Position numbers and translations under genes: made by a program. Below the pieces are notes generated by a model. That model did no database searches and had not been told where the DNA came from. It saw only the letters and a list, made by a program, of their open reading frames with translations. From Terramyces sp. JEL0728 (lineage: Eukaryota > Chytridiomycota > Chytridiomycetes > Rhizophydiales > Terramycetaceae), in contig JADIIU010000009.1 of the NCBI GenBank assembly GCA_027603945.1, forward strand, positions 1 through 64,000: a DNA stretch of 64,000 nucleotides, given 5' to 3'. This document shows positions 290-63,991 of this stretch, in pieces. Within the stretch, counting starts at the first letter, position 1, and each line of letters opens with the position of its first letter.

Positions 290-2750
290 TTAAGCTACAT
301 AGCTATACATATCCTTTTGCCCATCCATACGTTCAATGTATTCCTTTTCAAACAAGATATCAATGCATCTCTTAATATCTGGAATTTGCGGTTTGAACCT
401 GGTTTGAACTTGGGCGATAACTTCCTGCACTAATTGCACATGCTTCATTGTTTTACGAGTTTTCATGATACGGACAATAGCGGCCTAGAATTATAACGAA
501 TTACCTGAATGACTAATTCACGATCCTTTGCAATGGTCTTGTGAGTATCGTCCGATTCTTGCTTTTGTTCAGATTTGATTGCAATATTGAGGTTGACTTT
601 CAACTTTTTTGATTTGAACCCATCATTAAGCGTGTACTTTTTGTCTGATTCAGTCAGGATCTTTGCTTTTACCAACAATCCCAAGTTGCCCAGCAAAGTT
701 TCTGGGTTTAATCCAGTAGTTTGCAACAATTCATCCCAAGAGTAAGTCAGAGCTGAGTTGAAAGGCAACAGGATACCCATTTGATATGTCGAAACTTGCA
801 AAGTATAAGTTTTGTTCCCTGGAAGATAGTTGGTTTTCAATTCACCCTTGCTCAAGTGAGTCAACCACACCAACTTTCTGCCTTGATATTTACTTTGATA
901 GTATGCTAGGAAACGCTCATACGGCTTTAAGAGCTACTGTTAAATCGGATTTACATCTTGGGGAATGTTGAATCCAGTAGTTGGAGCATATAGTGGCCAA
1001 GAACCGCTTCCCAGTACCAATATGCTGAAATCAATTTCTTGTTTTCCATGAGAAGTTTCCATCTTTTCTCGGAATTCACTGTTCAAATCCTTACTGACAG
1101 ACATGTCTCCAAACATTTTTTGCAGTTTGGAAGTGTATTCGTAGCCACAGGCTTCCTTTAACTTGCTAATCATAGAAGCTTCAGCATCGTCAGAAGCAGA
1201 GGTAGAGTTGACCAAACGCTTTGCAAGGTTCTTTGTGTAAAACTTTTGGAAAACATCTTTGTCTTCAATAAACTTGAAGATGGTCATCTAATGTTAAATA
1301 CAGTTACAGCTCCGTTCAACAAATCTTCAATTTCATTGTCTTCGTTAATCTTTGAGCCTTTTCTCAACAATGAATCAGTGTACTTTGCCAACAGTTCAGA
1401 GCTCTTGCTCGAGCCAGTGGTGCAAAATGCGTTTCTGTTGATGAATTCGCGGCAGGCTTTATCCAAAGATGCGACAAATCCAGCTTCCGATTTGAAGGCG
1501 GTAACGGTGGTGGCAGCAAATTTGGTATGGACAAAGAGAAGAGCTTCCATATAAGTTTTTGGGTCAACTTCAAGAGGTGAGCTGGGTTTCTTTGCCGGCT
1601 TTTCACCATCTTCAACAGGAGTGGCAGCACCGCTTGCGGCAATTTCAGCCATGGACTCTTGCACTTTACGCACTGCATCCAAACCTTGTTGTTTCACATG
1701 GTTAAGGAACAGATCTCTCAACCTTTCTAACGTGGATGGCACTCTAGATAACAAGCCAAACATTCTCGTCAAGTCTTCAATCTTGTCCTTTTCAATGAGA
1801 GGCTGGAATTGGTCCTGAATAATGGTAGCGTGGTTTGCAATCAAAACAATTTCAGCTTTAGCAACCAAGCCATCTCTAGTCGATGGATGCAAGTAGCTCT
1901 TTACTCTATTGTCTTCTTCTTCCAGCCAAATGCCGGCTTTCTTCATGTAATCTGTAATTGGGTTTGAGCCAATGTAAATTTCACTTTCTGCCTTGTAAAA
2001 GATTTCTGTTTGTTCAATGAATTCCTTTTCGAAATAGGTTTGGTAAAGGTCCAAAGTCGTCAATTTTGAATCAATATCATTGATACCAAGAGTAACTATA
2101 ATTAATATTCAATTGCCTGTGCTGTCAGTGATGGTCTGCAGCAGTCCAGAGTCGATTGTTTCTCCTTTTCTTTCTCTGTAAATCATCTTTAACATTGATG
2201 GCAACAAACGCAGGTGCAGAGTTTTGAAAAAGTGGTCTCGCCAGAGAATTAAGCAGGTCTAGATTAGAAATGCTTACAGTGTTGATGTCAAACACTTCTC
2301 CGATGTTTTCCTCCGAGACTCTCTTAATCCACATTCGGTTAAGGTAGCCAAGCAAATGATTGAGAATCCTACAAGAAACAGTGAATGCAAGCCATTTTTT
2401 TGAATAAAATACTAATAGCGATTCTTCATTGTGACTCTGAGATTCTGAGACCAAGTTTTGCAAATGCGAGGTAATATGTGATTTGAAGGAATAGTACAAT
2501 TCTCCACCGGATATCTGGGCTCCTAGAATTAACTATACAAACCTCTGTTGGTAGAGGAGGTCGCTGCTGGTTGATTATGGTTTGTCGCTGTGCAAAATGT
2601 GATGATGGCACTACGGTCAATGACTGCTTACGTATAGGATTTCATAAATATATCTGGGGGTAAACTACGATTGACTGTTCCAAGAATTGCATCTATGGTG
2701 GGTACAATTTCAGCCCAGACTGAATTCGCAATATCTTCTGTAGATGCCAT
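290..2750 (-). CDS. CUL1: cullin-1 (SCF ubiquitin ligase scaffold)
   Basis: Scaffold of an SCF-type cullin-RING E3: the N-terminal helical repeats hold SKP1/F-box adaptors and the C-terminal cullin homology domain holds RBX1. Eight exons (290-484, 505-933, 955-1287, 1308-2095, 2117-2258, 2278-2522, 2543-2610, 2632-2750) join in frame to 772 residues, close to the usual CUL1 length. Visible landmarks are YLNRMWIKR in the N-terminal repeats, [19 protein letters not shown] and GELKTNYL in the cullin domain, and the C-terminal neddylation winged helix, where [15 protein letters not shown] carries the acceptor-lysine region. The seven introns are 19-21 nt; that at 2096-2116 has a GC donor. The start is the first ATG in frame, giving [15 protein letters not shown]1 fits better than CUL3 or CUL4 because of the GETIDSGLL and WRDHFFKTL segments. 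Confidence 0.93.
2096..2116 (-). other. 21-nt GC-AG intron in the cullin gene
   Basis: Read on the minus strand the intron begins GCAATTG and ends TTAATTATAG. Removing it turns an in-frame TGA into the conserved continuation [14 protein letters not shown]; no GT donor gives a readable junction. The branch-like TTAAT sits close to the acceptor, as in the GT introns. Confidence 0.75.
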
Positions 2751-2973
2751 TTAGATTTCGCAAACAATTTTTGCAGTAAGACTCACAGATCAATTGAACC
2801 CTTGCAGCAGTAAACTTGATCACTGAATACAAATTTGATCAACGAATACAGCAATAAACCAGTCTCCGAGGCTAGCTCTCAATAGCTCCATGTGCGTCTC
2901 TGAATTCAATTTAATTTAGTAGAAATACTCTGCGAGTATATTCCTTTTATTAGAAAACATTGAATTACAAAGC

Positions 2974-3636
2974 CTAGTTCTTGTTTCTCAATTTAACAAG
3001 TCTCTTCTTTGAAAGTCTAGCAACAGTAGCTGGAGCTTCTGCAGCCTTTTCAACTTGCTTTTCTTCTTCAACAAGAATTAATTCAACATGGCAAGGAGAA
3101 GATTTGTATGCTGTTGTTAATGCATTTCTTACCGTTAATACGACCGTGGGCACGGAAAGTTCTACGGCGTTGTTTAGGTGCTTGGTTAACTTGGATATGG
3201 CGAACAAGCAATTTTTCCAAATCTAATCCTTTGACAGTAGCGTTGGATTCAGCATTCTTGAGTAATCCAAGAACGTATTCAACGGACTTTACTGGCCAAC
3301 GAGCTCTGGAAACACCGTGTGCTTTTCCTTGAGCAGTTCTACCAATACCACCGGCATAACGACGGAATGGTACAGCTTGTTTACGTTCCAATACATCATT
3401 GAGGAAACTGACTGCTTTAGTATATTTGTATCCTGCAATAGTTGCTGCTACTTCACGGGTGTTCTTGTAGTGAACACGAACGTAGGATGCTTGAGCTTTG
3501 GCAGCTAATGGTTAGTGCTGTTATTAAAATATCAGAAGTGCATGTGTTTCCTGCAAATCCTCCTTATAATTCCTTACATTTTGCGCTAGTTTCAATGGCA
3601 GCGTATCTAGGGTTAATTAATTACTTGCCTTCCCAT
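2974..3636 (-). CDS. RPL17: 60S ribosomal protein L17 (uL22)
   Basis: Large-subunit ribosomal protein lining the exit tunnel. Exons 3629-3636, 3578-3606, 3133-3504 and 2974-3110 give 181 residues, the normal eukaryotic length. Conserved stretches include YVRVHYKNTRE, PFRRYAGGIGR, RWPVKSVEYVLGLLKNAESN, HIQVNQAPKQRRRTFRAHGR and SSPCHVELILVEE. The first coding exon is only 8 nt and is followed by a 22-nt intron with a GC donor (3607-3628). The second intron (3505-3577) is 73 nt, the only long intron resolved in the window. The third (3111-3132) is 22 nt. The N-terminus MGRYAAIETSAKSAKAQ matches the family pattern M-x-R-Y...KSAKAQ, which fixes both odd junctions. Confidence 0.93.
3505..3577 (-). 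other. 73-nt intron of RPL17
   Basis: Starts GTAAGG and ends ACTAACCATTAG, with a fungal-like CTAAC branch site. It is more than three times longer than every other intron resolved here. Introns of ribosomal protein genes often carry small RNAs. I see an isolated CTGA but no clear C box, D box pair or H/ACA fold, so no ncRNA is called. Confidence 0.8.
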
Positions 3637-4177: not shown

Positions 4178-5209
4178 ATGAAATTATTCTTGATCGCCAC
4201 CATTGCAAATGCTTTTGTCCTTAATTTTCAGCAGCCTCTTAAAGTAAAGGACAAACAAACACTGTTGCAAGTTATCAAGTCACGTACTGATCTTGAAGTG
4301 CTTGGACAGTTACTAGCAGAACGGCCTGGGCTTGAATCAGCACTCTCGGATCCCAACGCTGATTTGACTGTGTTTGCTCCTATTGATTCTGCTTTCAGTA
4401 AAATCAAGAACCCCCCACCACCTGAAGTAATCACCAAGGTAACAATCTATTGATGGCAGGTTATGATTTACCATCTAGTCAACGGCACTATTCCTTCCTC
4501 AAACTTGTTGGATGGAGATTTATTGGAATCCGGACTGGCTCTAGAGTCTTTGGATGATGCTAATCAAGTAATCAAAGTATCCACAAAAGACACTGGCTTA
4601 ATCACATTAAACTATCATTCGATTGTACACGAAAGCGATATCGTCGCTTCAAATGGCGTCATTCATACAGTCGAGCAAATTGTACTTCCACCAGCATCGC
4701 TGTTCTTTGTTGCCGTGCATTTGCCATTAAAGTACGCTGGATTCATTTTAGCCCTGAAATATACTGGTTTGGACGATATCGTACGATCGCAGCCTTCGTT
4801 GACCGTGTTTGCACCTACAAACAGAGCTTTACAACAAGTAATCAGTTATTAATCCAGCTTGGATGGGCAAAACTTCGTTTCTTATTCAGTCCTGCGGGGA
4901 AGCACATCCTAACTACTGGTTTGAAATCGCATATCGCACCAAAAGTTTTGTACACTGAAATCGCATTTGCCCATTCACTTCCATTCGTAGTCCAGACTCT
5001 TAACATTCCGCTTTTAGTCAGGGCTGATGCAAAGGCAAAAACTGTAATTCTAATTAACCCAGATTTTACTCAATGGTATCGCCCATGTTGAAGACTTTGA
5101 TGTTATTGGTGCTAACGGCGTCTTGCACGGGATCGATTCGTTTATTGGAGTTAACACTGGTGGCGATGACGTACCTGAAGATTGGATTCATATCCTTGAT
5201 AAATTTTGA
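4178..5209 (+). CDS. secreted protein with two fasciclin (FAS1) domains
   Basis: Four exons (4178-4438, 4460-4837, 4858-5043, 5063-5209) join to 323 residues through introns of 21, 20 and 19 nt. The ATG at 4178 starts a signal peptide, MKLFLIATIANAFVLNF. Two FAS1 domains follow: the first has DLTVFAPIDSAF, a YHLVNG motif and NGVIHTVEQIVLP; the second has SLTVFAPTNRAL and ANGVLHGIDSFI. FAS1 proteins are extracellular or cell-surface adhesion modules; some fungal ones are GPI-anchored, but this one ends DWIHILDKF without an obvious hydrophobic tail, so secretion is more likely. Ligand and role are unknown. The neighbours give no functional clue. Confidence 0.88.
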
Positions 5210-5418: not shown

Positions 5419-6705
5419 CTATTTTAGACGACAATTTACCTGACTATTGAATTGACAAGGTTGAAAATTTTCAATATTTCCCAAATGCTTTGCCTTGGCA
5501 AGGAGCTTTTTGAAAGCATACATAAAATTACATGCAAGTCCATATCCTTCATCATCCGTTGTTCGATGAATTCCAATGGGGATAAATCCATATTTTGATT
5601 CTGCAAAATATATGCTACCACTATCACCAGCTTCAGCAAAAGTGCCGACATTAGGGTTTACCCTAATCATCTTTTTGTATTCTTCATTAGGTCTCATCGG
5701 TCTAGATGCATTATCAAACTTTCCAATTGTAATTCCTGTTACTTGACCAGATTTGATAATATTTGCATCTTTTTCAATATTGGTGTCCCAGTTTTCCCAA
5801 TACTCACTATCTGCAATTCGGTAAATATTAGAATGTTTCCCCCAATTCAAACATTTTACTAAAGCAATGTCACACTCATCATCATAAATGGCAAAATCCA
5901 CACTCTCGTTAAATGTTTTGATTTCAGGCGAATCAAGTTCCATATCTGTTAATGTTTTAAAGATTACATGAGCTGATGTAATCATATAATGGTATTTACC
6001 TTGTTTCACAAAAAACCCAGTTGTACCAGTGCCAGTAGTGTCTCTGTCCTGAAATAATTCTGTTACAGCTGGAGAGAGGTGATAAAATCAGAATTTTCCG
6101 ATACTACACAGCCAGAGTGAACACAGTCATCTCTACGCTCTCTTGTATGATAAGGAGCTTCATGATAAACAACAATACCATCAGAAATTTCTCTTAGAAC
6201 TGAAACATCTTCCTTTTTGCCATAACGATAGAGTTTGAGTTTGGTAATCATGTAATATTTGGAATATTCCTTCCTCCAACAATTTAGAATGAATATCTTT
6301 TCGTAAAGTGCCATTCTCCATAAGTTTGTCAAATTCTGTAAATTCCAATATCTGATTCGAATCTTTTTGGTCACTTTCTAAATATGCAATAAGTTCTTTT
6401 ACATAGAAGTAGAATTTCTGACGAACAGAGCTGGGAATATAGGATTTCGATGGCTTGTTGAGTGTGTCAATAAGAGATATTGGATCCAAAGTAGGAGGGT
6501 TTGGAAGCAGAACTCCAACCAAGCTTATAGTATTTATCAACTTTTGTCTTTCCTTTCTTGGAATAAAGCTTGTGGTTGACCCAAGGAGCAATTGCAAGGA
6601 ACGAAGGTCATCCAACAGAACAGCAGTATTATCTTTCAGCAACTTCTTATCAGTTGGAGCCAAATTTTTGAATCCTCTTTGAAATGGCGTGCAGAACAAA
6701 TCCAT
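5419..6705 (-). pseudogene. trypsin-like serine protease domain protein, reading frame broken twice
   Basis: From the ATG at 6705 a helical, charged N-terminal region reads to about 6245. The sensible frame then shifts to KLKLYRYGKKEDVSVLREIS and VHSGCVVSENSDFI, and shifts back near 6075 into ELFQDRDTTGTGTTGFFV, which leads into a chymotrypsin-fold domain. That domain shows the whole triad: His in TSAHV, Asp in CDIALVK and Ser in GDSGS. The frame ends at 5419. The second shift could be hidden by a 56-nt GT-AG intron, but the first has no GT-AG solution that keeps the protein-like frame, and a CT-repeat lies at the second. The simplest reading is two small insertions (1 and 2 nt) in a decaying gene, or assembly errors. 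The intact triad means recent loss or error is as likely as old decay. Substrate is unknown. Confidence 0.55.
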
Positions 6706-6928: not shown

Positions 6929-7886
6929 ATGTATGCGGAGAACAAGGATAAAAAGGGATTCGAATATATTATAAAGTCATTGATTGCGGGAGGAATAGCC
7001 GGGAGCGCAGCAAAAACGGTGGTAGCTCCACTAGACAGAGTGAAAATACTATTCCAAACTTCACAACCCCAGTACGAGAAATATCAAGGTAAGCTGCGTT
7101 AATACAGGCTCTGTTGCCGGGTATTTTAGAGCACTGAAAAATATACAGCTATCCCAAGGAAGCATTGCTTTGTTTAGAGGGCATTCAGCGACCTTGATGC
7201 GGATATTTCCATACAGCGGAATCAAATTCATGGTATATGAACAATGCAAGAGAATATTGATTCCTACAAAAGAATACAATAGCGGACTGCGGAATTTTGT
7301 TGCTGGATCGATTGCAGGATGTATTGCTTCAGCCATTAGTTACCCTTTTGATGTTATCCGCGTTCGATTAGCATTCGAAATTAAATCAAATCCATTATCC
7401 ATCAGTGAACTGTCGAAAGTGATTTACAATGAACCCAACAATTTAGTTAGAGGCCAAGGCAGTATATTAAATTTTTATCGTGGGCTTTCTGTATCACTGG
7501 TTGGAATGATACCATATGCAGGTGCATCCTTTTATACATACGAAATGCTTAAAATGAAAGCTATGGACATACCGCTGTGCAGAAATGACAACCCTCCACC
7601 AGCATTGAATTGGTGGTCAACAGTCACGATTGGAGCAGTTAGCGGAGTCATGGCTCAAACAGTATCTTACCCATTTGAAGTAATTAGACGGCATATTCAA
7701 GTATCCGCTATCAACAACGCTTCTAAACAGACTACCTTCCTCAGTACGGCAAAGGGAATATTCAAGCGAAAAGGATTCAGAGGATTCTGGGTTGGGCTGG
7801 GAATTGGCTACCTTAAAGTTACTCCTATGTTTGCAGTTTCCTTTTATACATACGAGTATTGCAAGCTACTGTTTAATATTGCATAA
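6929..7886 (+). CDS. mitochondrial carrier, CoA/nucleotide type (SLC25A42/LEU5-like)
   Basis: Inner-membrane solute carrier of 312 residues in two exons (6929-7088, 7108-7886) separated by a 19-nt intron. All three repeats of the family are present with their signature motifs: [14 protein letters not shown] and PFEVIRRH, each followed by G-rich turns such as [19 protein letters not shown] and [19 protein letters not shown]. The [12 protein letters not shown] and [13 protein letters not shown] segments resemble the coenzyme A/ADP carrier branch (human SLC25A42/A16, yeast Leu5), which moves CoA into the matrix. The exact substrate is inferred. The start was chosen because the first repeat begins a few residues after it. 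Confidence 0.85.
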
Positions 7887-9046: not shown

Positions 9047-12000
9047 ATGTCCATAGAGTTTAAAAGTTCATCGTACGAACTTAGAATTGAAGAGCTTGGA
9101 GAAATTGTATGTTTTGACAGAAGAACAGATCCGCAATTGGTTGAAGTCCTTCTCGACACGTATGATGGGGTCCAAGGGATAGCAAACAGACTTAAATCCG
9201 ACGTTGAAACTGGAATTCCATTAAAGTATACTCACACTCATAACATGCCAACTAAATATGGTCAAGACGTTGGGCAGGATATGACTGTCATTGATCAAGA
9301 AGACAGAAAAGAAGTATTTGGAGAAAATATTATCCCTCCGCCGCGCTCTCTAACTATCCTCGAAATCGTGTGGGACACTGTCGTAGAAGACCCAATCCTC
9401 AAGATTTTAATTGTCGGTGCGGTACTTGTATTATCCCTTGGTACCGCGACTTGTCCTTCAGAAGGTTGGATTGAAGGTTTGGCAATTGTAATCGCCGTGT
9501 TTATCGTGCTATCAGTTACTGCTGGAAACGACTGGTCCAAAGATAGAAAGTTCAAGAAATTGATGCTGCTACAAACTGACAAAAGATGCAGAGTTATTAG
9601 GGGTGGTGTCAAAAACGAGATTTCTTCCTGGGATATTTTAGTTGGTGATGTCGTTGAACTAGTTGTAGGCGATGAAGTTCCAGCTGATGGAATTTACATT
9701 ACTGGCAACAGATTGATTATTGATGAATCGCCATTAACTGGGGAGACTCAGCCAATGAAGAAAAGCACAGAAATGCCATTCCTGTTTTCGGGCTGTCAAG
9801 GTAAAGTAATATCTTATGTTAGTTAGTGAAGGTAGTGGGCTCATGTTGGTCACTGCTGTTGGTGTTCAGTCTAGTGGTGGTAAAATCCAAGAATTGTTGA
9901 ATGCTTCTCAAGATGAAATGACCCCCTTGCAAGAAAAACTCAAAGATGTTGCAATTTTAATTGGTAAAGTTGGTGTAGCTGCAGGTGTTATTACATTTAT
10001 TGGATTGGCTGTTCGTTGGGGTATTGATATCGCAAACAGCGTTCCGGTCGCCAGTACCGCGTGCAATGCTTCAAGCGGCGGATATTCTGTCCTGGATCGC
10101 TTATCTTCAATAGTCGAAGATTTTGTAATTGCAATTACTGTTATTGTGGTAGCTGTTCCAGAGGGGCTGCCATTGGCCGTAACTCTTGCCCTCTCTCTTT
10201 CAATGTTCAAAATGATGCGTGATAACTGCTTTGTTCGTCATTTAGATGCATCTGAGACAATGGGCCAAGCAACAACTGTCTGCACCGACAAAACCGGGAC
10301 GTTGACTTACAACAGGATGTCTGTAGTTAGAATCATGGTCGGGGATCGTATCTATAAAGGTGAAGGGTCTGGAGACAAGGATGCTATGCCATTCTCTCCA
10401 AAAACCTTTCCAAATGAAATCCGAAGTGTTTTAACAGATGGTATTTGCATCAATTCAAACTGTTTTATCAAAAATGAAGAGCTACTTGACGAACCTGGAG
10501 TGTTGCCGATATTTGTAGGCTCAGCAACAGAAGGCGCATTATTGGTATTTTCTCGAAAGATTGGCATCAACTACAAGAATGTGCGCCATAAACTAAAGGT
10601 GGTTGAAAATGGTGTCTGGTCTTTCTCTGCAGACAAAAAGCGAATGTCGACTCTAATTGAACATGACAAACACTACCGATTGTTTACCAAAGGCGCTTCA
10701 GAAATTATCTTGTCTCTCTGCACCAAAGTATTGAATTCCGAAACGATGGAGGTTGCGCCAATTACTGCAAACGAAATCTCTATTATCAGCAAGAATATCA
10801 AAGCCTGGGCTTCTGAAGGATTAAGAACATTCGCACTTGCTTACAAAGATATCACCACCAAATACGATAGCAGCATTGACGAAAACATTGATTCGGATTT
10901 GATTTTTGTTGCTCTGATTGCCATTAAAGATCCGCTAAGAAAGGAAATACCTGGTGCTGTGGCAATGTGTCAAAAAGCTGGACTGGTAATTAGAATGGTA
11001 ACCGGTGATAATATCCTTACAGCGACAAAGATTGCCAAAGAATGCAACATTTTCCATGGAGATGGAATTGCTTTGGAAGGACCAGTTTTTAGAACAATGT
11101 CTGATGAAGAAAAGCTGGCCATTGTGCCTAAACTTCAAGTAATATCTTGGTAACTTTAGGTATTGGCAAGATGTTCGCCGGCAGATAAATTTGAATTGGT
11201 AACTTTACTGAAATCTTTGGATGAAGTTGTTGCAGTGACAGGAGATGGCACAAACGACGCACCTGCTTTGAAAGCGGCAGATATTGGATTTTCTATGGGC
11301 ATTTCTGGGACGCAAATTGCGATGAATGCTTCTGATATCGTGTTGCTGGATGATAATTTTGCCTCTATTGTCCAAGCCATTCGGTGGGGAAGGAATGTTC
11401 TTTGCACAATCAGAAAGTTTTTACAGTTCCAACTTGGCATCAATTTGGCTGCTGTAATTGTCACATTTTTAGGCTCAGTTATCACAGGTTCTTCTCCTTT
11501 AAGCACTGTGCAGTTGTTGTGGATAAACTTGATCATGGATTCGTTTGGGGCAATCGCGCTTGCTTCAGATGAGCCAGATGCTAATATTTTAGACGCAGCC
11601 CCACAAAGAAAACAGGATCCTATGCTGACCAACGGAATGAAAGAATACATATTGCTGCAAACTGTTTACCAAACAATAGTTTTAATGTTCCTGATCATCT
11701 GGGGCGATGCTGTAATTCCAAACTACCATACCGATGCAAACGCTTTGCTTGGAACCCCTTCGCTCAGAACAAAGACTTTGATTTTTAACTCATTCATTCT
11801 TATGCAACTTTCAAACCTGGTTTGTGCTCGCAATATCAACGGGGAACTGAACATGTTTATCGGATTTTTCAAAAACAAATACTTCCTAATGATTCTATGT
11901 GTTATCATTTTGGTGCAGCTATTCGCAGTTTGCGTTGCATACAGCTTGTTTAACTGCATACAGCTGTCGTTAACAGAATGGGGGATTTGCTTTGTTTTCA

Positions 12001-12294: not shown

Positions 12295-15200
12295 CTAGTT
12301 GGATTTTTTGGTCAAATTTACGTTTTTTTCCAAATTAGTCTTTGCAATGGTCTGCAGTGCTTCTTCTTTGCGAAGAGCAATTGGTGAAGTTTCAGACGTT
12401 TGTTCCACTTTCAGTTTATCAACAGCCATTGAAATTCTGTTTGTATACCATTTCTTGTTCTTTGGCTGAAGAGTCTCAGGAATTGCTGGCGGCCGCACAA
12501 CGAATGGTCCTATTTCTGGCCTTGCAACATTAGGCTCGATAGCAGGTATCCACTGGAATTCTTGACTTGGCAATTTTAAGCCAATTCTGATAACTGGCAG
12601 CAAAACTTTCCACAGGTTTTGATCGGTTTCAGCCAAACGTTCTTCTTGCTTTGCTAAATCGTATTTTGTTTCAATTGATTCTTCTGCCCTGACAAAAGTT
12701 TTCATCGCTTCAAATTCTATGGACGTGTGTATGGTAGCGGACACTTGAACTACAATGCATTTGTTGATGTACAGATTTTTGGTCTTTACAACAAATGCAA
12801 ACGCATCTGCACCGTCAATTAATCCCTAATGTAAATCGAATATTACCTCTATGATAACAAAGATTTTTTCTTTCTTGTGGGGCGGGATTCTACAGTTGCA
12901 TGGCACAACAGAATACGAAATCTTCTTTTCAGTACTTAAATACAAAAAGTTGTCCGTTAAAGGATCGCCCTTCATGTCGAATGCACCCAGTTCCAAATAT
13001 GTATCGCCAGAGTTTTCAATTTCAAACATCTTTCTAACTTTTGTTTTCGAGCTGATTTTGTTGAATTTGATTTGGATTTTTGATACTTCAACTCCTCCCA
13101 ATTCAGCTGATATCTTTGTTAAATCCAGATCGTCATCTAATGGAGTGATGTTTTCCCCCCCAACGTGGAATCCAAAGTTTCCTCCTTTACCTGCAAAAAT
13201 GATATGTTCTAACGCAACAATCTCGTTCCTGTTGCTGACTGGCCGTTCTGCAGGTGTCCCAAGACGTATGTCTTGCCAGGTCATTGGAATTTCGTGCTCG
13301 GTATATTGTGTATCCCCGGCCGCACCTTCTTGGATTTCATCCAATTGATAAAAGGTAATCTTTCCAGTTTCGACAGCCATTTCGTCTTTTGGCAGATAAA
13401 GCACTTTAACAACTTTGATTTCCCCTGGAGCAAGGTCGAACTCTGTTATTGTTGAAAAAAAGTTGGGATTATTTGACCTTGGCCGCACTCTCATTCTCAG
13501 TTCCGTTGGGTTGTGCACGGTCACTTCTTTATATTCCGGTTCTTTTAATCCTACTATGCCAAAATCAGTTTCTGGCGTGCTGACTTCCAACTTTGGGCGA
13601 ATCGAATTCCCGAGCAGCAGCATAGAGAATTTTTCATTTTCAACTTCAAATATTGCTTCTGCTTGATATCTAACGTCGTTTTGCGGAACAAAGTGCATTT
13701 GAATTGTATTTTCGTGGCTGGGAACAGCGATACCTTCGCTAGGCATACCGATGAAGAAAATATCCTTATAATTGTCCTCTACAGTCAACTTCCAACTTTT
13801 TGGCCGTTTGGAAGGATTTACAAATGAAAAGGTTCTGCTTGTCTGGTTTTGGACAAAAATAGATCCAAAATCTATTTCGTTGGGAATTTCAATTGTTTCC
13901 CCAATCTAATTTTAATATGTCTTACGTCTATCAAGGTTGCAGAAATTGGCATCAACAGCCTTTCTAGATAGTCAATTTGAGTATTAATCGAAATCATAGC
14001 TTCTCCAAACACACTTTTTTCCACAATGCTCTGGATTTCGTTCTCAGTTAGAGCTTTTACATTAAACTGAATATCTCCACTTGCCCCTGCATCGATATCC
14101 TGGTTATAACTTTCTATATCAAAGCGCTAATTTAACTCTCTATTACCACCAGTCCTTCTTCCACGTTTTCCAGTTCTATTTTGAACTGAAGCAAGAAGCT
14201 ATTTGGATTGAAAACAAAATATTTTTTTGAAGCACCTTTATCCATATGCTGTATTAAATTAGAACCTTACCACAAGTCCAAAATCAATTTTTACCACAGA
14301 AGGTGTTGTTCGATAATCGCTGGCCTGAACTGTTCTATATAAAATTGCCAATGGCAAAATTTGAATGAGATATTTTATGGGCACAAGTGCAAGGACTGTT
14401 TCTTTCCTTCTGATCTGCAGTGCATAGTTTTGAGGAATTCCAACAGGCAGAGAGTTGACAAAATCACTGTCAATTAATTCTCCAGATATATATTTTGGTT
14501 CTATGTAGAATGTTAGCAGAATCTGAGCAGATGAGCGTTCGTCTTCCCTTGCATTTCTTTCCAGCGTGAGGGCAGTTTGGTTTGTTTTCACAAATTCGCA
14601 CTCTGCCAAGGTGTTTGGGTCGATGATTGAAATTTCCAAGTCCAAATTCAACTTGCAATCATTTTCAATTACAACCTTTGTTAAATATAAGGTACTTCTT
14701 GTTCAATCATTTCTGCAATGTTCATTGGCCCAAAATCCAAAACAGGAGAAAGTCCTTCTTGATATATCGCTACGGGTTCAGATGCCGCTTTGGCCACAAA
14801 TGTAAACTCTCCCACTGAGGTTTGAATTATTACGCTCGTTTCGTAATCAAAATTCATTATGCCAGTAAAAGTCATTGTCAAATTTACTCTGCTCTCTGCT
14901 TTAATTTCTCCTTGCAATGGCGATTCAAAAGAAAACTCTTCCACATTATCCCATGGGCCAACGCTGTATACACAAGGTGCGGTGCCTGGATTTGAAAATA
15001 TTACATCAAGGCTTTTCTTATCTCCAATTCCAATTAATCCAAAGTCTAGCAATGGGGTATCTACCGCGAACATTGGTTTTCCTACACCGCCCTGCAATTC
15101 CAATTGGGAGAATACCACCCAGTTGTCTTGATCCTCTTCCTAGCCATAAAACAATAATTACTGAGCATTTTTCAATTACCAGTTGCGCATTTTGGAGATC

Positions 15201-45022: not shown

Positions 45023-47154
45023 TTACAATTTTGACTTGATTGCATAGTATAGTTTCAGACTTTCAGGGTTCGTTAGCGAACTGCTTGGTTGGACATTTTC
45101 TCCAGAGATTATCTTTTTCACTGCAATTTCAACCTTCTTTCCTGTTAATGTATATGGGATATCCCCGATTGGCAAGATTACAGCAGGGACGTGTCTCGCA
45201 GACAGCTTTGTCTTTATCCTTTGCTTAATGCTATCGACTAGGGCTTTGTTGAACTGCTTACCGTCGGCCATTTTGAGGAACAAAACTACCCTCTCTCCAT
45301 CAGCGGTTTGTTGACCAACTGCCAAAGAATCTTTGACATCAGCGAAAGCAGTCAAGATGTTGTACAATTCGGCACTCCCAAATCTGACACCTGCCGGATT
45401 CAATGTGCCATCGCTAAATTATATATGGGATACCTTCTTCCGAGCATGAGCACACCGCCAGTCTTGGAATTGATGCTTAAATAGTCGCCATGGTACCAGA
45501 CACCTCTCACTTGATTAAAATACGCTGCTTGATATTTTGATCCGTCTTTATCATTCCAGAAGAAAACAGGCATAACTGGAAATGGCTCTAAAATTAAGCT
45601 ATTCATTACTTGTACAAACTAAATCTCCTGGTTTATCTATCACAGGGTCGCCAGCATCGTTCCACGCCTCAACTGCCATTCCCAACGTTATACATTGGAT
45701 TTCTCCTCGGTAGACAGGGAGGGCCGAGTTGTGTCCGGCAAATAGAGATACAATATCAGTTCCTCCAGTGATACTTGCCACTAAAACATCCTTTTTGATT
45801 TTTTTGTAAATAAAATCGTAAGATGCGGGTTTCAATGAAGATCTGGAATGAATAAGCAATTACCCTGTGCTATAGATCGAATGAATACTCGATAAATCGC
45901 AATCTTCTCCAGGAAAATAGTTTGCTTCTTCAACATTTTGAATGAATTTTGCAGAGGTGCCAAAGATAGTAATCCTGGTTAGTTTGTAGTTACTTTAGTT
46001 TTTCAGCAAGTTTCCAGAGGTGACTGATATCCGGATATACAGGATTTCCATCGTACAGGACAATTGAGGCACCAGAAACCAAACCTGAAATCAAATAGTT
46101 CCACATCATCCAACCAGTCTATATTAGTTACAAAATACAGTGGTATAATAGAAATATCGATCTCCCGGCTTCATTGATCCGTGTATTATATGCTCTTTCA
46201 TGTGTTGCACAAGCATTCCGCCCTGGCAGTGCACAATGCATTTAGGAACTCCAGTTGTTCCCGAACTGTACAATATAACTGCTGGCTGTTCAAATGGGAC
46301 TTGTTCAAAGCAAACTACATCATCTCCAGAGGCTACAAAATCATCAAACAGCACGCTCTTTGGAATTCTACCAAGATTTGGTCTGGTAATATTTGATATA
46401 ATGACAACTTTTTCGACGGTTGGTAATCCAGCAATAATTGGCCCTAATTTCGCAAAAATATCGTGAATTTTCCCTCCATATTTAACAGACTCTACTGAGA
46501 GCAAAATGCGTGGTTCGATCTGCTTGAATCTATCCAAAACAGCCTAAATCAATTGAATATCACCTTTTCTCCAAAATCTGGTGAGGCAGATGTCCAGATT
46601 GCCCCGACAGCAGTGGTTGCAAGCATGAAAACAACAGCTTCTGCGCAATTTGGGACGAATCCAGCAATCCTGTCCCCAACCTTAATTCCTGCTTTCCTTA
46701 ATGCATTCGCACACTTCATAACTGAAGAGCGCAGCTGCTTAAATGTCAACTGCACTAGTTTGTCTGTTTCATCTGCTGTTAAAAATATATAACTGGTTGC
46801 TATAATTGCAATTTCGTCGTCCGTTCTCTTTAATAGATTTTCAGCATAATTCATTCTAGCTCCATGGAACCACTTTGGAATTTCATAGATCGGAACTGAT
46901 TCATCAACAACCTGAATAAATCCGGAATTACCTTTGTATACGGTTTGGAACTAATCACTCCACAGAATTCCCAGATATCAGCCCAGAATGCGGAGATGTA
47001 GCTGGTCGAGTATTTGTAAAGTTCTGGGTAGGATGCTAGCAATTAGTATTCCCATACAGAGCTTCAAATGGTGCTTTTTGTTGACAAATTGCATAAATTT
47101 GTACATGGCAGTCGAATTGACATCCTTTGGACTCCAAAGCACAATATCAGGCAT
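45023..47154 (-). CDS. AACS: acetoacetyl-CoA synthetase
   Basis: Cytosolic ligase that activates acetoacetate to acetoacetyl-CoA, feeding sterol and lipid synthesis. Nine exons (47058-47154, 46932-47035, 46564-46911, 46139-46543, 45994-46118, 45864-45974, 45610-45842, 45434-45587, 45023-45413) give 655 residues; the eight introns are 19-22 nt. Family marks: N-terminal MYKFMQFVNKK, FWADIWEFCGV, PKWFHGARMNYAENLL; adenylation motif ILYSSGTTGVPKCIVH; TGWMMWNYLISGLVSGA; GTSAKFIQN; GGTDI; YHGDYLSI; SDGTLNPAGVRFGSAELY; and PYTLTGKKVEIAVKK with the catalytic lysine. Start is MPDIVLWSP; the frame above it has only TTG. Its stop codon lies 31 bp from the convergent myosin stop. Confidence 0.95.
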
Positions 47155-48214: not shown

Positions 48215-51200
48215 TTACTCGTCAATTGCTTGCACCAGCACCTCCTCTTTGGGTGGATAATTTTCAGTATCTGGATGCAGTTGAGTATTTATGCAACTCG
48301 TTGAGCTACTCTCGCTTTTTGACGATTTTGAATTCTCTGAAGCCTTCAAATGTTCAGCTGAAGACAGTTCAGCAACTTCAGGAATTGTAGAAAATGGAGT
48401 CGGGGTTAAAATAGAAGTTCTGGATATATCATCTCGGTCGCTGTTCGTGGAAACAGACTCGCTTGTATCTTGATCTGGGAGGTTTTCTGGATGCTCGTCC
48501 TGTTCCTCGCGCTCTTCGTTTTCATAAATTTCCTCTTCCTCTTCCTCCTCTTCCTCTTCCTCCTCTTCTTCCTCTTCCTCCTCTTCCTCTTCCTCATCTT
48601 CATCTTCTTCATCATCGTCGTCGTCATCTTCTTCGTCCAACTGTTTCTTTCTAAGAATTGCAGCTTCTTTGTAAGCCCTGAAATCAAAGTTTTCAACATC
48701 AAAAATGCAAAATGGGTGATCTTCCAGCTCTAGTGCAGTTGGTCTGTCTTCGGGGTTGGTAGCAAATGTGCATTTGAGGAATTCTGACGCATCCTGGGAA
48801 ATATCGGTTGGTAAAGGGGGCTTATCAAACCTTCCTAGCCTCCATAAAGTTTGGATTTCATCCAGGTTTTTCCATGGGTGGGTTGATGTTATCATTTCTA
48901 ATACGACACACCCTAAACTCCAGATGTCAACTTTTGCAGAATACCCTTTGCCTTTAATTACTTCAGGCGCCATCCAATACACTGTCCCTTGAATAGACAT
49001 TACGGAATTATGTTTGTATGCGAGTTCATATTCTACATTAGTGATATTTTACTGCTTCTTTTTGATATGCCAAAGTCAGATATTTTCACCCATCCATCTT
49101 CATCAATCAAAATATTTCCACCCTTAATATCTCGATGTATAATTCCGTTTTCATGCAGATATTTTAAACCACACAATATTTGGTTTACCAGTCTCTTTAC
49201 CAATTCTTCATTAAATGGTCCCATCAGAGCCAATGCAGACGAAATTGACCCACCAGAGACATACTCCAAAAATACATTGATTACATCGCCGTCGGTATAG
49301 AAACCTAATTTAAATTCATTTGTACCAATATATCTCACAATGTTTTCGTGCTCTAAATCCTTCAACAGTGAAATCTCCAAATGTAGTGCTTCCAGCATTT
49401 TTTTCCTCGTTTTACTGTCCACTGATCTTGTTTTAATGTTCACTTGTTTTACAGCCATAATTTCATGGGTTTGGCAATTAGCCCCGTAAAATACTTTTCC
49501 GAATGAACCCATGCCGATTAGCGGGCCTTGTATCCAATTTAATTTTCTAGGGGTATCTGGACTTACTGTGAATGTTTCTATAAACTCCATCATTGATTCG
49601 CTATGTTCCAGGGGAGGTGCCAGACCGATTTGCTCTTCTTGAAGCTCTAGCGTCGATTTTTCTTTTTGCAATTCCACAGTGATTTCCGGGATTGTTGCAG
49701 GCGGTTTGGCAGAGTCTTCATCAACATCTCCAAGGTAGGATTTTAGTACGGAATCTTCATAATCGATACTTGCGAAATTCATTTCTTCGTCCTTTCCAAA
49801 AAGTATTGGCAACGGACGCTTTCGCTTGCCATCGCCAGTATCTTTGTTGAGTGAAGCACCGCTTTTTAGTTCTTCCAGCGAGGTCGAAGCGCCTTCAGAC
49901 TCTTCAGAATGCAATTCAAACCTGGATTGGAATTTGTCTTGAATAATCTTTTTCTGCAATAATTGAGACTTGTGTCTTTTGTTCTTTGTTGTGACCATTG
50001 ATTCCATAAGTGCATCTTGGAAATTCGGCCCTTCCTGCTTAATTTCATTTAATCCAGGGAAGAAAGCTTCCAAGTTTTGAGCAATTAATTCTTGGGGCGG
50101 TCTATCACCAAAGAAGGCCTCCAGTTTTCTATTTGGCTGTATACCGCCATTAACTGCATTGACTGGACTTGTTGGCACACCAGCAGGTTTTTCCAATGGC
50201 ATCCATTTTTTATGTTCTGAGGTCACAGACGATTTCCTTTTCGATTTCGCCTTCTTGCCGGTTTTAACTTTACTGGCACCAATGTCATTTTCACCAAAGA
50301 AGCTTTTCAATTTTTTGTTGGAGTTTGTAGGCACCGATTCTCCAAAGAAATCCTTCAGTTTCTCGGTATTCTTTGACTTGGTTTTTTCCTCTAATTCATC
50401 TTCGACGCTTTCGTCCATGCTGTGTTCTAAAGAATCATTCAAAATGGAATCAAATATCAGCGTGTCGGTTAATTTCTTTGATTTCTTTTCCGGTTTTTCT
50501 GGGACAGTTTCGCCAAAAAAGTCTTTAAGCTTCCCTTTCATCCGAACTTCAGGAGTCTCGTCCACCTTCACATCATCCGCCAACATAACAACGCTATCCC
50601 CCAGTCCTCCAAGATCTTTGAGCAATTTGCGGGTTTTCGCTCTTACTCTGGCAACCGGTTGAGCTTTCACTTTCGGGTGCCGCTTTTTATCTATTACAAT
50701 ATGAGCGCGATACGGGTGATCAGGACTCGAACAAATTTCTGCGAGTGTCAAGTCATCTATGCTGGTATCTCGAATAACTATGATTAACACAAAATACATC
50801 TATTTGAGCTGAAGGATTGCGCTCTTATATAGAGCTCGTATTCGTTTTGGCTCTTTTCGTCATACTTGATCCCAAACCTTCCATAAATTTTTTCTCTGAT
50901 CAAGCCTGGTTCTTGATTTGGTACATTTACATCAATCACATAAGAGGTATCATTCATATCGTACACCCGAACACATTTGTTCTTTACTGCATCAACAACC
51001 ATAACATCCTTTTCTTCCTAAAATTAATCAAACAACAACCTTTGAAGCCGGAGAAGCTCCAAACCCTTTAAAGAACGTAGGAGTTCTTTTTATTTCGCTG
51101 ACCGATGTCCTAGAATTTCTTCGAGATGTATCAGGAGTTATTTGTTGGCCGGATTGGTCTTTTAGTAATACGCCTGGACTCTCTGGATCAGACTTTTGGC

Positions 51201-54417: not shown

Positions 54418-57400
54418 ATGTCTGCAAAAGCTATCAGAGAATTCGATGGTAAACACCTATTGAATCACTTTATCGGCAAAGATCCTTCCTTTGCTGAAAA
54501 TTTACCTCCTGCACACTTGGCTACCGTAGCTTTTGATTTAGCAGTCCTTGAACAATCCAAAAAGGCGTTCGACGACCACGTTAAATATGTGTTGAACGAA
54601 GTTGAAGCTCAACACCCCTGGCTGCAGACTACCAAATTGGTCTGCAAACCCGATCAATTGATTAAGCGAAGAGGAAAGAACGGCTTGCTGGGAATAAATC
54701 TCTCATGGGATGATGTAAAGAAGTGGATATCAGCTAGAGCCGGCAGCATCATCAAGGTAATTAATTCTAATTTAGATTGAAAAAACCTCTGGATATTTGG
54801 ATACTTTTATTGTTGAGTCTTTCTGCCCTCATCCGCAAGATTCCGAATTTTACGTGTGTATCCAGTCTGTCAGAGAAGGAGATCTCATCTACTTTACCCA
54901 TGAAGGTGGTGTAGATGTTGGCGATGTAGATGCTAAAGCGTCCAAACTGATGGTCCAAGTCAACCAGCCGTTCCCTACCGCAGATAAAATTCGATCAGCT
55001 TTGTTGAACAAGGTGCCTGCAAAAAAACAAGACGTTCTGGTTGCTTTCATCACCAGCTTGCACAGTGTATATGCTAAATTAAACTTTACCTATTTGGAAA
55101 TCAATCCTTTGGTGGTTCTCGAAGATGGTGCTGTTCATAAAGTATTCTATTTGGATCTTGCTGCGAAACTAGATCAAACTGCAGAATTTGAATGTGGCCA
55201 ATTATGGTCCGAAGGAAGAAAACTAGGCTATCCCAAAGTTACTTCAGCTGTCGGGCCTGTGATGGAATTCCCAGCACCATTTGGAAGACAGCTTACCAAA
55301 GAAGAAGCCTATATTGCTGAATTAGATGCCAAGACGGGTGCATCTTTGAAACTTACAGTGCTTAATCCAAACGGCCGTATCTGGACCATGGTCGCTGGTG
55401 GGGGTGCCTCTGTTGTTTATTCAGATGCCATTGCTGCACATGGATATACCCACGAGTTGGCCAACTATGGTGAATATTCTGGTGCTCCTTCCGAAACACA
55501 AACCTATGAATATTCTAAAACCATTTTGGATTTGATGACTAGAGGCGATCCACATCCAGAAGGAAAGTTTTTGTTTATCGGTGGTGGTATTGCCAACTTT
55601 ACTAACGTTGCCGCAACTTTCAAAGGAATCATCAGATCAATGAAAGAATACAAACAGCGATTGCAAGCCCACAAAGTTCGTATTTTCGTCAGACGTGCCG
55701 GACCTAACTACCAAGAAGGGCTAAGTTTGATGAGAAATCTGGGTGAAACCTTAGGAGTAGAAATCAATGTATACGGCCCTGAAATGCATGTTACTGGGAT
55801 TGTTCCACTTGCACTATACGGCGATGCTAAAGGGCTTACATCCTCTGCTAACGGATTAAGCAGTGGAAGCTCGTTGATGGATATTGCCCATCCACCTCAA
55901 ACTGCTACTGCTACCCCTGCAGCAAAGGCATCCAAACCAGCACCAACTGGACCAAAGTCCCAAGAAAAAACCGCAAACCCAAATTCTGGACTCAAGCCTC
56001 CGTTTGATGGAACCACTAGAGCATTTATTTATGGTATGCAGCCAAAGGCCGTTCAAGGAATGTTGGACTTTGACTTTATGTGCAAGCGATCTCAACCATC
56101 TGTTGCATGCATGATTTATCCATTCGGCGGACATCATGTACAAACCTTCTACTGGGGCACCAAAGAAACCCTTTTGCCGGTATATACATCTGTCGCTGAA
56201 GCTTGCGAAAAGTTCCCAGAAGTAACTGTTTGTATCAACTTTGCCTCTTTCAGAAGGTACGTTTCTTTAACAATAGTGTTTATGAATCAACTTTGGATTT
56301 GATGAAATATCCGCAAATCAACACTATCGCAATTATCGCAGAAGGTGTTCCCGAAAAGAGAGCCAGAGAACTCTTGTGGAAAGCAAAGGAAAACAATATA
56401 TTGATTATTGGGCCAGCCACTGTTGGTGGTATTAAACCCGGATGCTTCAAGATTGGTAACACTGGTGGTATGATGGATAATATCGTGTCTTCTAAACTGT
56501 ACCGTGCCGGCTCTGTTGCGTATGTGTCCAAATCTGGTGGTATGTCCAACGAGTTGAACAATATCATTTCCAGAGCAACTGATGGTGTATATGAAGGTGT
56601 TGCGATTGGCGGTGACAGATATCCAGGATCAACTTTCATTGACCATATGTTGCGATACGAAGCCGACGATAAAGCAAAGATGATGGTCCTTTTAGGAGAA
56701 GTTGGTGGCGATGAAGAATATTTGATTGCTGAAGCTGTTAAAGCAGGAAAGATCACTAAGCCTGTTGTAGCATGGTGTATTGGTACTTGTGCAACCATGT
56801 TCACAACCGACGTTCAATTCGGACATGCTGGATCATTTGCAAACTCTGACAGAGAAACTGCGAATGCCAAGAACAATGCTTTAAGATCAGCTGGAGTCCA
56901 TGTACCTGAAACCTTTGAAGATTTACCAATTATCTTGACCAAAGTCTATCAAGAACTTGTTGACAACGGGACTCTCGTACCAATCAAGGAACCTGAAGTG
57001 CCAAAGATTCCTATCGATTATGCTTGGGCACAGGAATTAGGATTAATCCGTAAGCCAGCTTCCTTCATTTCCACCATTTGTGATGACCGTGGTCAAGAAC
57101 TGTTCTATTCGGGAATGGCTATTTCAGAAGTTTTCAGGGAAGATATCGGTGTTGGTGGTGTATTGTCACTCCTCTGGTTCAAACGCCGTTTGCCACACTG
57201 GGCAACAAAGTTCATTGAAATGGTGTTGATGCTCACTGCTGATCACGGTCCAGCCGTTTCTGGTGCACACAACACTATTGTCACAGGTGATATTTAATTT
57301 AACAATAGCTCGCGCTGGCAAAGACTTGATCTCTTCCCTTGTATCGGGTTTGCTGACAATTGGTGACAGATTTGGAGGCGCATTAGATGGTGCTGCCCAA

Positions 57401-59844: not shown

Positions 59845-59867
59845 CCCACGATTAGATGCGTTGGACA

Positions 59868-61890: not shown

Positions 61891-61898
61891 ATATATAG

Positions 61899-63991
61899 TT
61901 AATTATCTTTGTAAATACGGTAGTATTTTAAATTGGTTTTCATCTTTGATTCATATCCTATATCGCAGAGTCGCTTGATACAATTTGAAATGCTTAGACG
62001 GTAAATGATATTGCTGCTTTGAAGCCCATTGTCCAACAACAGAAATACCTCGTTACTATCGATATGATGGATTATCCAGGCAGACAGCACAGACACGCAC
62101 TTTTCGTTATATTCGTTCTTGATCATATGCAGTATCTTTTTAATATCTACTTTTTGCAGGAATTGTGGTCTACTTGCAACCACTTGTAGAATGAGGCTCA
62201 ATGGTTCAATTGGCTCTTTGTTGATAACGTCTGTCAAAAAATCAAACGGGAGTCTTGATATCACATTGTAAGACTCTTGAATGACTTGTAAGAATTCCGC
62301 AGAGTCATTGATATGAACACACAGAGTTTTTAATAGCTCTCGGACAAGCTCTGGCTTTTCTTTTGCAGCTGTCTCGTAATGTTCAAAAGACATTATCTGC
62401 AGTATAAACAGATAATGTAGTTTTTCAAAAAGCAATTTCTTTATATCAATCCCGAGTGTAATGCTACTGCGTTAATTAGTGGCCTACCTTTCCTGTTCTG
62501 TCAAATGCTTAATAATGGTAGGCAAGACGTGTTCCCAGTGATTCCAAGTAACAAATGACATGATAGAGCAGAATGCTTTCAAAACATAAAAGGAGTGTGA
62601 ATTCTTGTAGCTGTAATCCAGGATTTCAAACAAATATTCCACTGAAAGACTTTTACTATGGTTTTCTGCAAAAGATTGCACGAGAATCAGATGTTTACAA
62701 TCAGAGTCTTGCATTTCTTCATAGCTATCATCAAAAGATTGGTCTGAATCGGACAATAGCGCTAGCATCCTGAACATGTGCAGCATTTTTTCTTTTTGAA
62801 GCAGCAATAGAATAATAATAGAGTCAATTTGAGGAGTGTCGGCTTCCAGCAGCAAATTCAATATGTCTGGATGCGCAATCTGAAATATTGGCAGCAGGTC
62901 CACTTGATCGGCAAAGAACAGCAGTTGATAGCTCAGTTTATCGCTAGAATTAACTTTAATTACACTAACGCTGGGTTTGCCTCGAGTGAAATTTCCTTTA
63001 CCATTTTGTGTGCAACTTCTCTTCTAGAACCATGAATCTTTGAGAAGATGTTTTCACAGTCAAGTGCCAACCACATAAGAATTATTCCACAATTGTTGTT
63101 TTCCGCTATCATTGCTATCAGGCCGTCAATCAAGGTATTTCTTTTCCTTAATAGAAATACAACCAAGTGTGAGACCAGATAGATTTCAACTGGATCAGCC
63201 ATGTTGTTCAATACGCGTAGTATGTAAGCAATCACCATAAATCCGTGTACATTCAGCACAAATTCAATTTCCTCTGTATTACTGTTTGCAATTAACGCGC
63301 ACATACTTAATACACTGTAAACATCACTAATTTCCAGCATTTCATTTACAAATTCGGCTATGGACAGATTTTTGACAAAGGCATTGAAAATAATATCCAT
63401 AAGTTTATCGTCATATTGTAAATTCTTTGCACTGCGGATGAATATCAATGAATAATTATTGACAGCGTAAGGTTCAAGTGCTGTTAAAACTGTTGACATT
63501 TCCACGTGTAAATGATTCTTTCTAATGAGCAACGCCAAAACATTTAAACTAATCGAGGTAATTTTGGTATGCTGCATGTTTCCATCAATCACTCCATCGT
63601 TGCTTATGATTTTATGCAGTGGTTCCAGGAGCTGGTATTCGAAACCAGGATTTAATTGCGAATAAAATGGAATGTAATCCTTGGATATGGAGAGCCCGAG
63701 ACAGTATTCGATGATAGTTAGTGCTCTGTGCTTTTCCTTCCTGCCTCCATGCAGATCTTTGATCAACAAGTCCCAATAAAACTCTAGGTATATTAGCCAG
63801 TCAAATATAATCAGGGTAACGTAGTGATCTTGTTTTGTGCGATAAAGCTTAAATTGTGTAAGATGGCTATATACAGCAACTGGATTCTTCCTGACCAGTC
63901 GTAGGAAGGAATTCATCATTGGGTTTGTAAATTTACACGACGCAATTAGCTCCGAAGTAGACTGACTGTAGACCTCGCTGATCAAATTCAT
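61899..63991 (-). CDS. helical-repeat (HEAT/ARM-like) protein, 5' end uncertain
   Basis: Three exons (62964-63991, 62488-62943, 61899-62466) with 20- and 21-nt introns give about 680 residues of almost entirely alpha-helical sequence: repeated hydrophobic helices such as SISLNVLALLIRKNHL, YLVSHLVVFLLRKRNTL and SVLSAWIIHHIDSNEVFLLL. This suggests an ARM/HEAT solenoid, but no specific family is recognised. An in-frame TAA lies at the window edge just above the first ATG (63991); it could be a true 5' boundary or the inside of another short intron, so the gene may be incomplete. Confidence 0.65.

Follow-up and report, generated by a model that had tools for sequence, protein, structure and literature searches.

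Very short introns of uniform length, probably spliceosomal, in the nuclear genome of the chytrid Terramyces sp. JEL0728

Introduction

Can the genes of a fungal nucleus be interrupted throughout by introns of only about 20 nucleotides (nt), and how would a spliceosome remove them? The question is raised by the first 64,000 bases (the window) of contig C9 (206,367 bases), in the 15.0 Mb assembly (15,016,339 bases in 231 contigs) of Terramyces sp. JEL0728. This organism is a chytrid (Chytridiomycota, Rhizophydiales, Terramycetaceae), which we take to be a saprobe. A sequence-only reading of the window had restored 20 genes by the removal of 77 introns, all but one of them 19–23 nt long. The present analysis argues that these are very probably real, U2-type spliceosomal introns of about 20 nt, distributed genome-wide.

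A single narrow length class with GT-AG boundaries

Intron lengths were measured with a gene finder whose coding model had been learned from long open frames. Every length from 10 to 160 nt was given equal prior weight, and only GT and AG were required at the boundaries. The sample comprised the window and twenty 10-kb stretches of other contigs (264 kb), and the longest intron allowed was 160 nt. This motif-free run called 106 introns. Of these, 49 were 18–23 nt long, 23 of them exactly 20 nt, where the distribution peaked, and the other 57 were scattered. When 15 other boundary pairs were substituted, only 3–11 introns of 18–23 nt were obtained (the highest, 11, with GT-AA), as compared to 49 with GT-AG, while the calls overall (87–110) were similar in number to those for GT-AG. 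Since the control pairs yield so many calls in all, the scattered calls outside 18–23 nt are of the sort that wrong joins yield.

Once the finder was given models of the donor and the branch, with no length preference and again up to 160 nt, it called 211 introns, of which 171 had scores above 3. Of these 171, 145 were 18–23 nt long, and the remaining 26 ranged from 25 to 153 nt in a flat distribution (at most three per 6-nt bin), as expected of wrong joins. The 40 lower-scoring introns were excluded from this length count; 26 of them were also 19–23 nt. A second, longer length class is not claimed, as the calls up to 160 nt were spread flat over the lengths. A run limited to 45 nt gave 215 introns, 197 of 18–23 nt, in 178,246 predicted coding bases of the 264 kb sample, a figure that still includes overlapping models on opposite strands. 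For each kb predicted to be coding there are about 1.2 introns, and the count from this run would scale very roughly to about 12,000 introns in the genome.

Across the whole assembly, the pattern GTAATT, 0–30 free bases and TAATNTAG was matched 411 times (208 forward, 203 reverse), as compared to 60 for the reversed pattern. Because the pattern itself prescribes what follows the branch, this count shows that the donor-to-branch distance is narrow. Among the 100 matches listed, 89 were 18–22 nt long, 58 of them 19 nt. The boundary control and the genome-wide pattern count together rule out chance, and they confirm, along with the length peak under a flat prior, the proposal that introns of 19–23 nt with a mode of 20 occur throughout the window. 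With this mode and a narrow genome-wide range, the introns belong to the ultra-short uniform kind, for which a mode of up to about 25 nt is expected. If retained, 22 of the 25 introns with lengths divisible by three would introduce in-frame stops, versus 71 of the 130 others. This excess was not used as evidence, because the finder reads stop-free introns through as exon.

Agreement with deposited and homologous proteins

The deposited Terramyces myosin (P0121, 1,565 residues) is reproduced letter for letter by the removal of seven introns of 20–23 nt, and the deposited acetoacetyl-CoA synthetase (P0241, 655 residues) by the removal of eight introns of 19–22 nt. Each of these 15 introns has only one possible GT-AG placement, and the same 15 were recovered by a relaxed finder run without these proteins. 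Since the deposited proteins are reproduced exactly in this manner, the public annotation already uses such tiny introns. A 36-nt call in the myosin gene and a 151-nt call in the acetoacetyl-CoA synthetase gene proved to be wrong joins when checked against the proteins.

ATP-citrate synthase requires three more introns, of 19, 20 and 22 nt. Homologues were aligned for all three genes (40 per gene, out of 120 listed), and the 18 junctions were ungapped in 27 of 36 (the worst, myosin junction 50) to 40 of 40 covering homologues. Among the matches listed for ATP-citrate synthase, the closest named relatives were Boothiomyces macroporosus (92%) and Globomyces pollinis-pini (79%), followed by Kappamyces (76%) and Gorgonomyces haynaldii (74%); Terramyces was not named there.

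The deposited acetoacetyl-CoA synthetase also contains seven residues without a counterpart in any of the 11 homologues aligned for this purpose, out of 120 listed; one of the 11 is a Terramyces paralogue. The corresponding segment, 46,773–46,793 on the minus strand (GTTATATATTTTTAACAGCAG), is 21 nt long, runs from GT to AG with TTAAC within, lacks a stop and has a motif score of 2.3. Judged from these features, it is probably an intron overlooked by both the annotation and the finder, although it could still be a genuine seven-residue insertion. Chytrid gene models can err where pipelines forbid very short introns or read stop-free ones through.

Anatomy of the introns

The donor consensus is GTAATT (A at +3 in 92%, A at +4 in 70%, T at +5 in 54%, T at +6 in 59%), rather than GTAAGT. 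G, the usual base at +5, occurs in only 11%. The branch motif is YTAAY, with its A at +14 in 85 and at +15 in 60 of 166 introns (145 of 166), all drawn from introns favoured by the same model. The tail after the branch A is 5 nt in 87, 6 nt in 73 and 4 nt in 6 of the 166, and ends in YAG. The introns are 72% A+T, and 88, 41 and 26 of 155 lie in phases 0, 1 and 2, respectively.

As the sequence-only reading had proposed, the donor, branch and acceptor are therefore nearly in contact, with only 4–6 nt after the branch A and no space for a polypyrimidine tract. Such a tract is common but not universal, so its lack does not exclude the introns from the U2 type.

Introns of the window

The relaxed finder, with a longest allowed intron of 30 nt, placed 59 introns in the window, in 19 of its 31 gene models: 13 of 19 nt, 25 of 20 nt, 11 of 21 nt, seven of 22 nt, two of 23 nt and one of 29 nt. 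The last (3,287–3,315) was rejected, as it scores -7.9 and sits within a long open frame, which leaves 58 of 59 at 19–23 nt. Three of the 58 are doubtful (15,140–15,161, 15,272–15,291 and 39,005–39,023), and a few more score near 2. The earlier total of 77 is plausible, but was not reproduced; the relaxed finder overlooks the N-terminal part of the cullin, for one. Nor was the single 73-nt intron recovered, and for the HYDIN-like gene near 15,080–15,330 the finder gave no good single intron. The 58 introns are listed below, together with 9801..9822 from other finder runs and the probable intron 46773..46793. The name fasciclin-like is our presumption.

485..504, minus, 20-nt intron, cullin; finder runs, cullin PF00888 on neighbouring exon
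934..954, minus, 21-nt intron, cullin; two finder runs
1288..1307, minus, 20-nt intron, cullin; two finder runs
3111..3132, minus, 22-nt intron; two finder runs
4439..4459, plus, 21-nt intron, presumed fasciclin-like gene; two finder runs
4838..4857, plus, 20-nt intron, same gene; two finder runs
5044..5062, plus, 19-nt intron, same gene; two finder runs
5419..5439, minus, 21-nt intron near end of gene model; relaxed run only
7089..7107, plus, 19-nt intron, mitochondrial carrier gene; two finder runs, Mito_carr
9801..9822, plus, 22-nt intron, cation-pumping ATPase gene, first junction; two finder runs, relaxed run split gene here
11139..11159, plus, 21-nt intron, cation-pumping ATPase gene; two finder runs, Cation_ATPase_C
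12826..12846, minus, 21-nt intron, HYDIN-like gene; two finder runs
13906..13925, minus, 20-nt intron, HYDIN-like gene; two finder runs, score 1.7
14127..14146, minus, 20-nt intron, HYDIN-like gene; two finder runs
14249..14270, minus, 22-nt intron, HYDIN-like gene; relaxed run, 46 nt in two other runs
14676..14695, minus, 20-nt intron, HYDIN-like gene; two finder runs
15140..15161, minus, doubtful 22-nt intron, HYDIN-like gene; relaxed run, score 0.0
15272..15291, minus, doubtful 20-nt intron, HYDIN-like gene; two finder runs, score 2.4
18992..19012, minus, 21-nt intron, HYDIN-like gene; two finder runs, HYDIN-type domains
19835..19855, minus, 21-nt intron, HYDIN-like gene; two finder runs
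23604..23622, minus, 19-nt intron, HYDIN-like gene; two finder runs
24864..24883, minus, 20-nt intron, HYDIN-like gene; two finder runs, score 2.2
25468..25486, minus, 19-nt intron, HYDIN-like gene; two finder runs
27566..27585, minus, 20-nt intron, MutL-type mismatch repair gene; relaxed run, score 3.1, mismatch repair domains on upstream exon
29555..29573, minus, 19-nt intron, p24 family gene; two finder runs, EMP24_GP25L
31057..31075, plus, 19-nt intron, small gene, perhaps the HSBP1 of the sequence-only reading; relaxed run only
31143..31161, plus, 19-nt intron, same small gene (perhaps HSBP1); relaxed run only
31906..31924, minus, 19-nt intron, SUN-domain gene; relaxed run, Sad1_UNC
32033..32052, minus, 20-nt intron, SUN-domain gene; two finder runs
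34229..34248, plus, 20-nt intron, charged (coiled-coil-like) gene; two finder runs
34479..34498, plus, 20-nt intron, same charged gene; two finder runs
34947..34966, plus, 20-nt intron, same charged gene; two finder runs
35228..35247, plus, 20-nt intron, same charged gene; two finder runs
35417..35435, minus, 19-nt intron, tubulin-tyrosine ligase family gene; relaxed run
35567..35585, minus, 19-nt intron, tubulin-tyrosine ligase family gene; two finder runs and genome-wide pattern, TTL
39005..39023, minus, doubtful 19-nt intron; relaxed run, score -1.2
40296..40316, plus, 21-nt intron, myosin V; exact agreement with deposited P0121
40442..40461, plus, 20-nt intron, myosin V; deposited P0121
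40631..40650, plus, 20-nt intron, myosin V; deposited P0121
43705..43727, plus, 23-nt intron, myosin V; deposited P0121
43942..43961, plus, 20-nt intron, myosin V; deposited P0121
44487..44507, plus, 21-nt intron, myosin V; deposited P0121
44738..44760, plus, 23-nt intron, myosin V; deposited P0121
45414..45433, minus, 20-nt intron, acetoacetyl-CoA synthetase; exact agreement with deposited P0241
45588..45609, minus, 22-nt intron, acetoacetyl-CoA synthetase; deposited P0241
45843..45863, minus, 21-nt intron, acetoacetyl-CoA synthetase; deposited P0241
45975..45993, minus, 19-nt intron, acetoacetyl-CoA synthetase; deposited P0241
46119..46138, minus, 20-nt intron, acetoacetyl-CoA synthetase; deposited P0241
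46544..46563, minus, 20-nt intron, acetoacetyl-CoA synthetase; deposited P0241
46773..46793, minus, probable 21-nt intron, exon in deposited acetoacetyl-CoA synthetase; in frame, 11 of 11 aligned homologues without the seven residues
46912..46931, minus, 20-nt intron, acetoacetyl-CoA synthetase; deposited P0241
47036..47057, minus, 22-nt intron, acetoacetyl-CoA synthetase; deposited P0241, motif score -3.7 in relaxed run
49033..49052, minus, 20-nt intron, protein kinase gene; two finder runs, Pkinase
50778..50797, minus, 20-nt intron, protein kinase gene; two finder runs
51018..51039, minus, 22-nt intron, protein kinase gene model; two finder runs, score 2.1, 154 nt in another run
54757..54775, plus, 19-nt intron, ATP-citrate synthase; needed for protein, homologue alignment
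56257..56276, plus, 20-nt intron, ATP-citrate synthase; needed for protein, homologue alignment
57287..57308, plus, 22-nt intron, ATP-citrate synthase; needed for protein, homologue alignment
62467..62487, minus, 21-nt intron; two finder runs
62944..62963, minus, 20-nt intron; two finder runs

The HYDIN-like introns lie in a single flagellar gene (12298–26351) of about 4,600 residues, which occupies 14 kb. Elsewhere in the window, two adjoining intronless genes (59868–60713 and 61060–61887) encode look-alike, membrane-protein-like products of about 280 residues, the first without a Pfam match, and two small genes (36972–37358 and 38371–38748) encode secreted-looking products that are alike in their cysteine-rich starts and threonine-rich tails.

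Splicing machinery

The U2 small nuclear RNA (snRNA) was matched at 140 bits, and the stretch around its branch-binding box, GUAGUA, is unchanged. SF1 and Slu7 scored above the curated cut-offs. U2AF35 was found in four pieces with 51–69% identity to the human protein, and its spliced part matches solved structures. The spliced model of U2AF65 matches the solved protein at 212 bits, along its two RNA-binding domains as well as the third domain, which binds protein. A related protein on contig C19, which combines two RNA-binding stretches with a third domain of the U2AF type, is presumably RBM39-like. U2AF, SF1 and U2 were all found in the genome, so their loss or plain change, which the sequence-only reading had considered, is not supported.

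The genes of this machinery are themselves interrupted in the same manner. In runs limited to 60 and 40 nt, five splicing-related gene models contained 12 introns of 19–20 nt: four in U2AF65, four in the RBM39-like gene, two in U2AF35 (partial), and one each in SF1 (partial) and Slu7 (partial).

The introns thus have GT-AG boundaries and a branch motif near the acceptor able to pair with the GUAGUA of U2, in a genome that encodes SF1 and U2AF, the factors for the branch and the 3′ splice site. These features support the proposal of spliceosomal-type introns in a fungal nuclear genome.

Several observations weigh against this conclusion. Removal of the segments is read from the genome and from homologous proteins that do not contain them, which stand in for RNA. 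The narrowness of the branch position is partly circular, given the origin of the introns from which it was drawn. The unspliced search for U2AF65 reached 251.7 bits, below the curated 310.3. Neither U1 nor U6 snRNA was found in the assembly, in a search that scored 41 first-look candidates out of 233 and 48 out of 1,328, respectively, and is no proof of absence; divergence, introns within the genes or assembly gaps are possible causes. Finally, the order of spliceosome assembly outlined below is a proposal only.

U6-like matches on contigs C199 and C111 reached 27 bits, as compared to the curated 44, and were set aside as chance-like; they are two near-identical copies within a 3.1 kb stretch that is 98.9% alike. 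These contigs, which have at least 3.1 kb in common at 98.9% identity, are either haplotypes left uncollapsed or the outcome of a recent duplication. Judged from their myosin matches, C100 and C74 look like a second pair of this kind. A U1 pattern matched 24 sites, with no clear excess over the 20 for the reversed pattern. Of these, 20 read ATAATTACCTG, a sequence that a CAG/GTAATTAT donor would likewise give on the opposite strand, and follow-up of the other four, ATACTTACCTG, gave no U1 match.

Proposed recognition and assembly at short range

That the spliceosome is adapted to the near-contact of its sites is an inference. SF1 would read the branch, U2 would pair with it via the unchanged GUAGUA stretch, and U2AF35 would read the AG adjoining the branch, while U2AF65 would make little or no contact with pyrimidines. 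The donor helix and the branch helix of the human B complex are 15 nm apart, a distance that an estimated 52 nt or so of intron would span, and assembly is poor below about 50 nt from donor to branch (PMC6692369). Only 13–14 nt lie between the donor and the branch A here. Since such a gap cannot span the human B complex distance, we tentatively suggest that assembly may hand the intron over step by step, or use shortened helices, instead of holding both sites apart together.

Removal would leave a lariat loop of about 14–15 nt, and the near-fixed intron length might be set by the smallest loop that the machine tolerates. A similar conjecture, avoidance of steric clashes around a sharply looped lariat, has been put forward for the ciliate Stentor (PMC9505925). 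Judging from only two cases, Terramyces and Stentor, a weakened +5 donor position may go with very short introns.

At the recognition step, a short-intron factor such as SPF45 (RBM17) could instead take over, with Smu1/RED easing activation and U2AF serving a few other introns. A subset of short human introns with truncated polypyrimidine tracts needs SPF45 rather than U2AF (PMC8363638), and Smu1/RED are required when donor and branch are close (PMC6692369); the present introns likewise leave no space for such a tract. However, both U2AF subunits are retained and their domains are normal, which makes this takeover rather unlikely. The C19 protein with its U2AF-type third domain reads, as we presume, as RBM39-like. 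A search for the RED_N domain gave no match, a result that is uninformative by the tool's own warning, and SPF45 and Smu1 were not searched for.

Removal without a spliceosome, by self-splicing or by an endonuclease and a ligase, would account for the minimal space left to a spliceosome at this size and for the failure to find U1 and U6. To our knowledge, however, no self-splicing fold would fit into 20 nt, and the GT-AG ends, the YTAAY motif and the conserved U2 snRNA indicate a spliceosome, which renders this explanation highly improbable. The similar introns of Stentor accompany a complete snRNA set (PMC9505925). Less probable still are errors of assembly or sequencing, or GT-AG matches that patch frames by chance: the finder does patch frames in this way, at a rate that is low and flat over the other lengths, and with wrong boundaries, but errors would share neither common donor, branch and acceptor motifs nor a single length, the GT-AG excess and the pattern count contradict chance, and the deposited protein models use the same introns.

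Comparison with known systems

Searches of open-licence PubMed Central papers turned up no account of comparable introns in a chytrid or another fungus. We consider the chances evenly balanced that essentially all nuclear introns of Terramyces, and perhaps of its family, have shrunk to about 20 nt with SF1, both U2AF subunits, Slu7 and U2 kept, and that this is the first such case in a fungus or animal relative. If so, a spliceosome with normal recognition factors would work at a donor-branch spacing of 13–14 nt, with a different order of assembly and a donor shifted from GTAAGT to GTAATT. A fungus that splices what would be thousands of introns over such a gap, and in which SF1, U2AF and Slu7 are still recognisable, would offer a system for asking which components of the spliceosome set the lower limit.

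The sequence-only reading had held that few lineages have introns this small, and had named chlorarachniophyte nucleomorphs and some ciliates. A comparative account gives 18–21 nt for nucleomorphs, and values that are shorter still for heterotrich ciliates (15–16 nt) and mikrocytids (16–17 nt) (PMC10245619). The Terramyces introns thus rank with the shortest that have been reported for a nucleus. The nucleomorph range is nearly that of Terramyces (PMC10245619), but the nucleomorph is the vestigial nucleus of a secondary plastid, not a fungal nucleus.

The heterotrich ciliate Stentor coeruleus resembles Terramyces in that its GT-AG introns are tiny, uniform in length and end shortly after the branch (5 nt, as compared to mostly 5–6 nt in Terramyces) (PMC9505925, PMC10245619). 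Its commonest intron starts with GUAAUU, as does the Terramyces donor, and it is not a reduced parasite either (PMC9505925). The two differ in length, 15–16 nt against 19–23 nt (PMC9505925, PMC10245619), and in the branch, which lies mostly at position 10 without a strong consensus in Stentor, but at 14–15 with a clear YTAAY in Terramyces (PMC9505925). All five major snRNAs were found in Stentor (PMC9505925), whereas in Terramyces, where U1, U2 and U6 were searched for, only U2 was found.

The introns of the mikrocytid Mikrocytos mackini (Rhizaria) are likewise numerous, conserved in sequence and very narrow in size (PMC10245619). Mikrocytids, however, have introns of 16–17 nt, and M. mackini is an intracellular parasite with a highly reduced spliceosome, whereas Terramyces keeps SF1, U2AF and Slu7. 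The same account describes the introns of microsporidia, relatives of fungi, as relatively short and alike in sequence (PMC10245619), but they are few and served by a reduced spliceosome, unlike the density of about 1.2 per kb of coding sequence in Terramyces. Comparable introns are thus already known elsewhere, and what sets Terramyces apart is its phylogenetic position, together with the recognition factors that it has kept.

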